A DNA stretch of 25,257 nt from positions 1 to 25,257 of IMG/VR virus record IMGVR_UViG_3300047557_001558. One strand, written 5' to 3'. Under the pieces are notes generated by a model that was not told the origin of the DNA, made no database searches, and worked only from the letters and a program-made list of their open reading frames with translations. Below, piece by piece: positions 19,735 through 22,590 of the stretch; the stretch's first letter is position 1, and every line of letters begins with the position of its first letter. This DNA is from a virus. A program made the position numbers and the translations under genes.

Positions 19735-19925
19735 GGCTTGGCCTTCGCGCATTCAGCGCACTTCCAGCCGTGCTGTTTGCCGGCGACCATATTTGCCTTC
19801 CGGCCCGCAGGCTTGGATGACTTGCCGCACTTCTTGCAGGGGAACCGGAAGCCGTACATGGCTGCGATCCGGTCGGCCTGAATCCGGTAGTCCTGAATCG
19901 CTGACGGGGGCGTGCTGATGGTCAT
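19731..19925 (-). CDS. Small zinc-ribbon-like protein, 64 aa
   Basis: Two Cys pairs (C30-x2-C33 and C56-x2-C59) are spaced like a zinc ribbon, with a Lys/Gly-rich loop between, and the N-terminal ~28 residues form an Ala/Arg helix with 'RIQADRIAAMYGF'. It may bind nucleic acid or a polymerase subunit. It overlaps both neighbours by ATGA within the early leftward operon. No family is named. Confidence 0.75.
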   Translation of the reverse strand: MTISTPPSAIQDYRIQADRIAAMYGFRFPCKKCGKSSKPAGRKANMVAGKQHGWKCAECAKAKP

Positions 19926-20119
19926 TTCCGCTCGCCCTCCGGCTGCATCGGATTGATGCCAGCGACCCGGCAGACCATAGTGGATTCAAGGAGCTTCGCC
20001 TTTGCCCACTGCTCTAGGAGGTCGTTGATGAATGATGTGCGACACTTGCCGGTCGCAGAGCAGTACCCGTCTAGAACGGCGACGGTTTCGGCCTTGGCCT
20101 CAAATCTGATTTCAGGCAT
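19922..20119 (-). CDS. Ribbon-helix-helix (Arc/MetJ-type) DNA-binding protein, 65 aa
   Basis: The N-terminal 'PEIRFEAKAETVAVLDGYCS' looks like an RHH beta-strand followed by helix 1, then 'KCRTSFINDLLEQWAKAKLL' gives the second helix, the usual ~45-residue RHH layout. Such dimers bind operator DNA through the strand. The start at 20119 is one base after the Cro-like stop; a longer frame to 20161 would overlap that gene. A regulatory role in the early region is likely. Confidence 0.75.
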   Translation of the reverse strand: MPEIRFEAKAETVAVLDGYCSATGKCRTSFINDLLEQWAKAKLLESTMVCRVAGINPMQPEGERK

Positions 20120-20120
20120 G

Positions 20121-20318
20121 TCAGGCGGCTTTCCGGTGCTTGCTACAGAAGTAGTCAGCAAGCGTCTGAATCTTCCTTACAGAAGGGTCTGGAATGCGGC
20201 CATCTTTCAGTTGCCACAGCCAGGAAGGTTTCAATCCGGTTTCCCGGCAAACCTCTGTAAGAACCGTGTCGCCACTGCGAAGCTGCGCCAAGACGTAATC
20301 GAGGATGTTTGTATTCAT
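20121..20318 (-). CDS. Cro-like helix-turn-helix repressor, 65 aa
   Basis: The short protein has an HTH: 'VLTEVCRETGLKPSWLWQLK' with the turn Thr-Gly-Leu and recognition helix Lys-Pro-Ser-Trp-Leu-Trp. It is Cro/C1-like in size and pattern and is the first gene of the leftward operon. Just upstream lie the palindromic operators 20330-20343 and 20353-20366, so it is the best visible candidate for binding them and repressing both early promoters. No C1-type repressor with a cleavage domain is found in the window. Confidence 0.8.
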   Translation of the reverse strand: MNTNILDYVLAQLRSGDTVLTEVCRETGLKPSWLWQLKDGRIPDPSVRKIQTLADYFCSKHRKAA

Positions 20319-20329
20319 GCCGAAATCAT

Positions 20330-20343
20330 CTCAAAATTTTGAG
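20330..20343. promoter_or_regulatory. Operator OL1 (CTCAAAATTTTGAG)
   Basis: A perfect 14-bp palindrome lies 12 bp upstream of the Cro-like start and is centred 23 bp from the next operator. The CTCAA/TTGAG half-sites match the other operators of the region. Confidence 0.8.
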
Positions 20344-20352
20344 CCGGTGGCA

Positions 20353-20366
20353 ATCAATACTTTGAG
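20353..20366. promoter_or_regulatory. Operator OL2 (ATCAATACTTTGAG)
   Basis: It is read on the minus strand as CTCAAAGTATTGAT, one base off a full palindrome of the same core. A minus-strand TATATT lies just upstream of it (about 20368-20373) as a possible -10 of the leftward promoter, though no good -35 is seen. Confidence 0.75.
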
Positions 20367-20421
20367 GAATATAGACGCGATGATTCTGACTATGCGAACT
20401 ACGCGCCCTTGAATTAGACCG

Positions 20422-20455
20422 CTCAAAGTCTTGAGTATTCGCTAAAAGTATTATA
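20422..20455. promoter_or_regulatory. Operator pair OM (CTCAAAGTCTTGAG and CTAAAAGTATTATA)
   Basis: A strong palindrome at 20422-20435 is followed 20 bp later by a degenerate copy at 20442-20455. Overlapping them are a plus-strand TATATT (20452-20457) and a minus-strand TATAAT (20455-20450), so divergent promoters are possible; -35 boxes are weak. The plus-strand one would drive the structured RNA just downstream. Confidence 0.65.
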
Positions 20456-20457
20456 TT

Positions 20458-20625
20458 CTTGGCTTGTCGTAACGGGTGGCACCGTTCGGCTTGCAGTAGA
20501 AACGCAGACCCGCAGTGTTACTAGGTGGGCCTTGATAAGGTGTGTTTCGACTGTTCTACTGCCAGTTGAATACGCTGCCCTGCCAAGGCCAAGGCCCACC
20601 TAGAAGCATCGCGGGTTTTTCTTTT
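20458..20625 (+). ncRNA. Candidate structured noncoding RNA with U-run
   Basis: No protein-like frame fits. A perfect 14-bp inverted repeat (CTAGGTGGGCCTTG at 20521-20534, CAAGGCCCACCTAG at 20590-20603) extends outward. After one mismatch, five further pairs (GTGTT/AGCAT with two wobbles) follow; after another, ACCCGC/GCGGGT (20508-20513, 20611-20616) closes the helix, giving about 25-27 pairs in all. The 55-base apex holds a second stem (CGACTG 20548-20553 with CAGTTG 20563-20568). The closing strand runs straight into TTTTTCTTTT, a terminator-like end on the plus strand only. A small hairpin (AACGG/CCGTT) lies at 20471-20486. An operator-controlled promoter lies just upstream. Function unknown; ends are approximate. 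Confidence 0.6.
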
Positions 20626-20913
20626 GGCGCGACCGCAATGGACGCGATAGCCAACGGGCCTGCATCGGCCAGCTTCCACGAATAGACCGGCACTCCTACA
20701 CCCGGAGACTACGCCGCGCGGCCTGTGAGCGAGGGACTGCACAAGAGCAGGGGTAAATGGTGGGACTGACCCTGTTTCGATGAATCGCTCCGTCATGCGT
20801 AGCCTGGTGTCTGGCAACACGATCAGACATGGGGCAGGGTCGGTTAATCCACCCTAGGGGAATCTATACCCAAAAATCACCGATAAAACATTTATTGGCG
20901 CTCGCCTGTAATT
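20626..20913 (+). other. Gene-free segment with a second structured RNA domain
   Basis: No credible gene lies here on either strand. A helix of ten pairs (ACTGACCCTG at 20765-20774 with CAGGGTCGGT at 20835-20844) is enclosed by GGTGG/CCACC and contains alternative stems such as TGTCTG/CAGACA. The segment after about 20855 is AT-rich (to ~20900) and shows no clear function. Confidence 0.45.
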
Positions 20914-20955
20914 CTCAAGATATTGATTGACAGACGCTCAAAGTATTGAGATACT
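20914..20955 (+). promoter_or_regulatory. Rightward early promoter with two operators
   Basis: TTGACA (20927-20932), a 17-bp spacer and GATACT (20950-20955) form a good sigma-70 promoter. The operator CTCAAAGTATTGAG (20937-20950) fills the spacer, and a second operator CTCAAGATATTGAT (20914-20927) overlaps the -35, 23 bp away centre to centre. Binding would block the polymerase. This is the probable promoter for the plus-strand operon starting at 21413. Confidence 0.82.
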
Positions 20956-21210
20956 GAATCTGTCGAAACAAACAACGCACCAGCAAAACCCGCGAGTCGG
21001 GCATTGAAGCCAAGCAAGAGAGTCCAGGGGATGCCTTGGTGAGCGAAGCGGAGAACCACCGGAGCGATAGAGCATCACGCAGCCTGATAGCGCAACAGGC
21101 CGTAACTGGAGAACGAAAGCCCAGCGACGAGAAGCGAGAGAGCTTCCGACAAGTACGCCACGTTACGGCCGCCGGAACCACTTCGACACCACTTCGGCTG
21201 GTGCTAGTGG

Positions 21211-21318
21211 ATGAAAAAAGGCAAGCGCCTAGTCAAGCGCCGTAAGGCTGGAAGGCCGATCAGAACCCTCGGAGCGCCGAGTAACAACCCGCCACGGCGG
21301 GCCAAAACTCCAAGCTGA
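21211..21318 (+). CDS. Very short basic ORF, 35 aa (tentative)
   Basis: The ATG at 21211 follows the AGTGG hairpin arm and opens 35 residues with 13 Lys/Arg, including Lys-Arg-Arg-Lys-Ala-Gly-Arg-Pro, which resembles an AT-hook core. No good ribosome site is seen and the frame crosses several leader hairpins. It may be a small nucleic-acid-binding peptide or simply chance within a structured RNA. Confidence 0.3.
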   Translation: MKKGKRLVKRRKAGRPIRTLGAPSNNPPRRAKTPS

Positions 21319-21393
21319 TCCGACCCGGAAGCCGGTAACCGGGATTGAGCAACACGGCCAAGCGGGCCGCGCCGACAAACAAGTCGGCCCGCA

Positions 21394-21409
21394 ATTCCCA
21401 CGGGGGAAT
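21394..21409 (+). promoter_or_regulatory. Hairpin covering the ribosome binding site of the 103-aa gene
   Basis: ATTCCC (21394-21399) pairs with GGGAAT (21404-21409) around ACGG. The GGGGG stretch that serves as Shine-Dalgarno for the ATG at 21413 lies in the loop and 3' arm, so the stem would hide it. Confidence 0.6.
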
Positions 21410-21412
21410 GCA

Positions 21413-21870: not shown

Positions 21871-22064
21871 ACGACGGCGGAATCCAGTTCTGGCAGCAGT
21901 ACCAATCCGAACACGAATTTACTGAGCAAGGAAAATCAAATGAGTCACGGAATCATGATCCTCGGGGAGTCCGGAACCGGCAAGAGCGCGAGCATGCGCA
22001 ACCTCGACCCGCAACACACGCTGCTGATTCAGGCAGTCAAGAAGCCGCTGCCGTTCCGTTCTAA
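21867..22064 (+). CDS. Short overlapping ORF, 65 aa (doubtful)
   Basis: An ATGA junction with the previous gene opens this frame. Its first ~25 residues (Asn-Asp-Gly-Gly-Ile-Gln-Phe-Trp-Gln-Gln-Tyr) look natural and fill the 69-base gap before the ATPase, but the rest lies inside the ATPase gene in another frame and is Arg/Gln/His-rich. It may be a leader-like coupling peptide, a remnant, or not a gene. Confidence 0.3.
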   Translation: MNDGGIQFWQQYQSEHEFTEQGKSNESRNHDPRGVRNRQEREHAQPRPATHAADSGSQEAAAVPF

Positions 22065-22590
22065 GGACTGGTCGTATATCACGCAGGACAACAAGGTCGG
22101 GAACATCTACGTCACCGATCAGAGCGCGAACATCATCAAGGCCATGCAGCGCACCACGAAGTCCGTGATCGTGATCGACGACTTCCAGTACATCCTCGCC
22201 AACGAGTACATGCGCCGCAGCGAAGAGACCGGGTTCGCCAAGTTCACCGACATTGGCCGGCACGCCTGGGACATCCTTAGCGCCATCGGTTCAGGCCATG
22301 ACAACAAGCGCGTCTATGTCCTCGGCCATACCGCATCGGACGAGTTCGGCAAGGTCAAGGCCAAGACGATCGGCAAGATGCTCGACGAGAAGATCACCAT
22401 CGAAGGGATGTTCTCCATCGTCCTCCGCACCACCGTCCAGAACGGCAACTACCTGTTTTCAACCCGCAACAACGGCAGCGACACGGTGAAGTCACCGATC
22501 GGGCTCTTCGACGAAGACCTGATCGACAACGACCTCGCCGCCGTCGATGCCGCGATTTTCAACTACTACGGCTTGCAAGAAGCCGCTTAA
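21940..22590 (+). CDS. P-loop ATPase, Sak4/AAA_24-like recombination protein
   Basis: The 216-residue protein has a Walker A, Gly-Glu-Ser-Gly-Thr-Gly-Lys-Ser at 9-16, and a Walker B, Val-Ile-Val-Ile-Asp-Asp at 76-81, followed by Phe-Gln-Tyr. The core resembles the small AAA_24/Sak4 ATPases of phages, which act with an SSB-like partner in single-strand annealing or strand exchange. The next gene encodes an SSB-like protein, the usual pairing. An AAGGAAA ribosome site precedes the ATG. Assignment to Sak4 rather than another P-loop group is by context. Confidence 0.85.
   Translation: MSHGIMILGESGTGKSASMRNLDPQHTLLIQAVKKPLPFRSKDWSYITQDNKVGNIYVTDQSANIIKAMQRTTKSVIVIDDFQYILANEYMRRSEETGFAKFTDIGRHAWDILSAIGSGHDNKRVYVLGHTASDEFGKVKAKTIGKMLDEKITIEGMFSIVLRTTVQNGNYLFSTRNNGSDTVKSPIGLFDEDLIDNDLAAVDAAIFNYYGLQEAA

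Follow-up and report, generated by a model that had tools for sequence, protein, structure and literature searches.

A strongly folded, self-terminating noncoding element takes the cI position in a lambda-like phage immunity region

Introduction

What stands between pR and pL in a lambda-like phage fragment in which no cI gene is found there? This question is raised by a virus record that has 25,257 bases and is probably a fragment. It was analyzed over its whole length and is called the window below. A first-pass annotation, made from the letters alone, had marked positions 20458-20625 as a candidate for an operator-controlled noncoding RNA. Several phage RNAs are known to act in development, among them OOP, sar, c4, PreS, VpdS and 24B_1 (PMC12197685). 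In our small literature search, which covered open papers only, that review describes no RNA in the cI slot.

Results

The element lies in the pRM-cI position

The left part of the window encodes head, tail and adaptor proteins, which show weak similarity to phage BcepC6B. Further right, the minus strand carries a cro-like gene, an ORF at 19922-20161 and the genes for VRR-NUC and HNH nucleases, an O-like replication protein, a P-like protein and NinB, while Sak4, SSB and a Gam/Gp157-like protein are encoded on the plus strand to the right of the element. The cro-like gene (20121-20318, minus strand) codes for a Cro-like HTH protein of 65 aa that matches PHROG 9425, transcriptional repressor, at 2.9e-6 and HTH_31 weakly. 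A pR-like promoter on the same strand (TTGCCA-17-GATGAT, 20325-20366) contains two operators, at 20330-20343 and 20353-20366. On the plus strand, a pL-like promoter (TTGACA-17-GATACT, 20914-20955), again with two operators (20914-20927 and 20937-20950), precedes a long leader and the early pL-operon gene for a Sak4-like single-strand annealing protein (21940-22590; PHROG 2872, 8.6e-90). Divergent pR and pL promoters with shared operators and a cro-like gene are thus all present, and the order in the slot is cro-like gene and pR (minus), element, then pL, leader and Sak4 (plus). Lambda pR and pL are arranged in the same way, and the element takes the pRM-cI position.

Operators at the promoter candidate and on both sides of the element were confirmed: CTCAAARTWTTGAG occurs at five sites, starting at 20330, 20353, 20422, 20914 and 20937. 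The middle one, CTCAAAGTCTTGAG (20422-20435), is accompanied by a half-site-like repeat at 20440-20452 and overlaps the -35 region of a weak plus-strand promoter candidate (20431-20459). This candidate can be read as TTGAGT-15-TATATT, with 9/12 consensus positions and a short spacer, or as TTGAGT-17-TATTCT, with 8/12. The possible promoter of the earlier annotation is weak in both versions, and a standard promoter scan reported neither.

Two further features of the slot were seen. The promoter-operator regions 20328-20377 and 20903-20952 form a 50-nt inverted repeat that is 76% complementary; such mirror arms could permit inversion of the intervening segment, and similar arms are found in the loci L167 and L160. 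Between the element and pL, a second, weaker structured stretch (20759-20852, GGTGG..CCCTG / CAGGG..CCACC) folds with a z of -1.9.

No cI gene was found in the slot, and relatives carry one there

The region had been described as free of genes, and this held: the largest plus-strand ORF inside the element has 47 aa and no family match. No plus-strand ORF longer than 47 aa starts anywhere between pR and pL in this 25-kb record, the small ORFs of the slot match no family, and the element itself contains neither a recognisable nor a long reading frame. A cI gene may lie elsewhere in the phage genome, beyond this piece. Across 20463-20625 no gene or promoter was supported on the minus strand either, so that the element does not qualify as a cis-encoded antisense RNA.

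We compared the slot with that of relatives, defined as loci that have ORF 19922-20161, its pL-side neighbour or a cro homologue in common with the window; their genes were called by reading and inspection of ORFs rather than by profile searches of each locus. In at least 16 relatives (L159, L160, L162, L163, L166, L167, L171, L175, L176, L178-L180, L184, L188, L193 and L196) the slot holds a plus-strand HTH/cI-type gene divergent from cro; L160 is the same contig as L007, and L178 and L179 are the same contigs as L200 and L201. In L159 the order is an S24-type cI, then a terminator, then pL. The slot ORF of L164, L172, L173, L186 and L197 looked HTH-like by eye. L165, L177, L182, L183, L185 and the L189 group stand outside this count, as do the truncated loci L181 and L187. 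Since relatives keep a cI-type gene in the same place, the slot is likely a transcribed regulatory position. In L161 (3568-3774, minus strand) cI is apparently cut to an N-terminal HTH stub of 68 aa, and the cro gene of this locus is, by eye, the closest to that of the window.

A separate observation concerns L178, where a segment between cI and pL on the strand opposite cI (1562-1803, plus) is strongly folded into several hairpins (z about -6 from 30 shuffles) and ends in a terminator-like hairpin. It has no Rfam or phage match.

A long helix with a structured apex ends in a U-run

The core of the element is a long helix between arm B (20508-20534) and arm B' (20590-20616). The first-pass annotation had put its length at about 27 bp; the helix is indeed long and comprises 25 pairs in 27 columns, namely 23 Watson-Crick and 2 G-U pairs. 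Its inner 14 bp are fully paired, in line with the perfect 14-bp inverted repeat noted before, and the two single mismatches fall where A20514 faces C and A20520 faces A. Likewise, the 55-nt apical loop was found to hold a second stem (20544-20551/20563-20570, spanning 20544-20570), whose loop UUCUACUGC has 9 nt (20554-20562 by helix arm I7). The 3' arm continues into GCGGGTTTTTCTTTT, and the sequence ends in the U-run GGTTTTTCTTTT (20614-20625); the U-run is absent on the minus strand, as expected from the earlier claim of a terminator for the plus strand only. A stable terminal hairpin followed by a U-run is the signature of an intrinsically terminated sRNA, and the candidate noncoding transcript would span 20463-20625, with its 3' end at the U-run and a tentatively placed 5' end.

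Folding of the plus strand was compared with shuffled controls. The minimum free energy of 20458-20625 is -80.5 kcal/mol; dinucleotide shuffles, 200 in number, gave -54.1 +/- 4.0 kcal/mol (z -6.57), and 0/200 reached the value of the element. The putative transcript 20463-20625 alone gave a z of -5.76, again with 0/200 shuffles as good, and the minus strand of the element a z of -3.3. In scans of 120 and 168 nt the element was the top-scoring fold of the whole window. A z of -10 from a scan with 30 shuffles was set aside because of too few shuffles. Among 40 shuffled windows, inverted repeats with the same loop size had at most 23/27 pairs, compared with the 25 observed.

A second, interlocked helix makes the predicted fold bistable

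The same transcript contains a second inverted repeat that interlocks with the first. Segment A (20463-20501) is predicted to pair in the nascent chain with segment A' (20554-20588), as an alternative to the fold described above, in a duplex of -37.5 kcal/mol. Only 0.10-0.17% of shuffles of A or A' reached this energy (z -4.3 and -3.9); the corresponding p of about 0.001-0.002 must be weighed against how many features were inspected, since this one was found by looking. The gain of the half-transcript 20463-20589 as a whole over its shuffles is modest (z -1.7). The 9 nt of the apical loop are exactly complementary to GCAGTAGAA (20493-20501), a 9-mer that is unique within the window.

The segments alternate (A-B-A'-B'), the linkers being 6 and 1 nt long, and the two folds should therefore be mutually exclusive. 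We considered a pseudoknot containing both helices, which was judged sterically impossible with such linkers across long helices, and hence treated A-A' and B-B' as alternatives. Along the minimum-energy trajectory of the growing chain, A-A' prevails from about 20568 to 20598 and B-B' takes over at 20604, before the U-run is made. The model thus suggests that the second inverted repeat renders the fold of the element bistable.

Searches for families and copies of the element

The Rfam/Infernal search returned no family for the window at the gathering score, and none at an E of 5, for which 20300-21000 was searched. This includes the C4 antisense RNA (RF01695); the same family scores 66 bits in the relative L171 (6722-6804, plus), which carries a true C4 RNA. 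DNA similarity searches against phages and plasmids revealed no copy of the element, and a pattern search with the exact arms found none in viral contigs. An 18-mer of the apex matched L199, a single chance match inside an unrelated coding region.

The covariance model R1 was run on 66 + 8 related loci and on 399 + 369 + 268 genomes (about 1,000, proteobacterial) and gave chance matches only; as R1 was built on one sequence and strict filters were used in the large scans, these are weak negatives. The matches in L189, L191 and L192 had an E of 4.7 and were attributed to chance. In L197 (97-194) R1 matched a helix that has no apex, U-run or sequence similarity and lies away from the cro/cI junction. 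Inverted repeats in Erwinia, Pantoea and L016 loci were unrelated in sequence and context.

Possible targets in the pL leader

Two short stretches at the start of the pL leader (20962-21002, plus) are complementary to the candidate RNA: 20609-20622 can pair with 20982-20995, and 20540-20551 with 20962-20973, each with a single mismatch. Among random 64-nt windows, about 2% match as well on both counts (joint p about 0.02), so that this complementarity is weak sequence evidence for a target. The leader start also contains the motif GCAAAACCCGCGAGTCGGGC (20977-21002), just past the pL promoter, which is common to L178, L179 and L202, and no copy of the RNA was found there. Since phages without a copy of the RNA have the motif as well, the complementarity may simply reflect terminator-like sequence. 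An antisense target scan across the window yielded best sites within the chance background; RNAduplex on long windows was uninformative for targets, as it permits long internal loops.

The motif GCAAAACCCGCGAGTCGGGC might itself be an antitermination or processing element; the phages that share it are otherwise different, and in L203 it is part of a short tandem repeat that lies inside a gene. The pL-operon leader of the window (20956-21410) is long and has no convincing gene. A boxA-like CGCTCTTTA occurs in the leaders of L139, L143, L159 and L178 and was, by eye, absent from that of the window.

Discussion

Sequence and folding energy together support well that a noncoding, self-terminating structured element is encoded on the plus strand next to repressor-type operators. 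It differs from the phage RNAs known to us for comparison. The CI RNA of phage P4 is a small phage immunity RNA that works through the loops of a compact fold. The C4 antisense RNA of phages P1 and P7 (RF01695) resembles the element in the same respects, as a small RNA of an immunity circuit with loops of a compact fold; however, the window has no RF01695 match, and no antirepressor target or processed-leader arrangement was found in it. The OOP RNA of lambdoid phages is also short, has an intrinsic terminator and is encoded near the immunity region, but OOP is antisense to cII (PMC12197685), whereas the strand opposite the element carries no gene, and a cII was not found in the window. The regulatory RNAs sar of P22, PreS of lambda and VpdS of VP882 also bear on phage development (PMC12197685); they differ from the element in genome position and in having known targets.

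We tentatively favor the reading that the element gives rise to a separate noncoding RNA of about 160 nt, transcribed in the cI position from the operator-overlapping promoter, closed by its own terminator hairpin and acting as a free regulatory RNA. Transcription would start at this promoter, and the nascent chain would pair A with A' first. The terminator helix B-B' would then displace A-A', and transcription would stop before the pL operon. The released RNA would expose a 5' hairpin and the 9-nt apical loop and might regulate phage or host transcripts; of all steps, this action in trans is the least certain. A role as regulator, antisense RNA or decoy, as suggested by the first-pass annotation, would be conjectural, as the searches gave no homologue and no convincing target. 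What speaks for a regulatory RNA is that helix and apex are more elaborate than a terminator requires.

Close behind stands the somewhat less probable reading that the element works only in cis, as a conditional terminator or insulator whose exclusive helices set the read-through from a promoter in the pRM position into the pL operon, the released RNA being functionless. Its terminator immediately precedes pL and points the same way, and the order A-B-A'-B' together with the fold trajectory is attenuator-like. An ordinary terminator, timm, lies between cI and pL in lambda, and L159 and L167 have terminators in the corresponding place, with the same direction. These are, however, short hairpins after a cI gene, while the element has a helix of 25 bp and a structured apex and does not follow a gene, and an insulator needs neither such a helix nor a structured 55-nt apex. 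Moreover, pL has its own promoter, and nothing that would set the switch, be it a ligand, a leader peptide or an antitermination signal, was found.

It is rather unlikely that the element is what remained of the immunity region after loss of cI, with pRM and the downstream terminator left to make a short functionless transcript in a phage that may be virulent or defective. The slot is without cI here and has one in relatives, L161 retains only its stub, and no integrase was present among the scanned proteins of this fragment, all of which would suit such a history. Yet relics and ordinary terminators are far less structured than the element, which contains two interlocking inverted repeats, and the operators are intact at three promoters. 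Least probable is an element acting as DNA, a cruciform or a mobile inverted repeat with incidental RNA: the inverted repeat is long and fairly stable on the minus strand too, but the G-U pairs and the U-run point to a plus-strand RNA, no copies occur elsewhere (phages, plasmids, viral contigs), and no target-site duplication was seen by eye.

In a bolder reading, a small bistable RNA would have taken the place of CI in this lineage and, jointly with the 65-aa Cro-like protein, would decide between the lytic and the lysogenic state, for instance through base pairing to the pL leader at 20962-20995. We regard this reading as improbable. Phage sRNAs as such are known, but an immunity region whose cI slot holds a structured RNA, flanked by intact control regions of pR and pL, would be unusual in its design. 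It raises the question whether a lambda-like switch can be run by a Cro-like protein and an RNA in place of CI. Even if the element is only a switchable terminator, it would still be a neat case of two interlocked helices that control read-through into an early phage operon.
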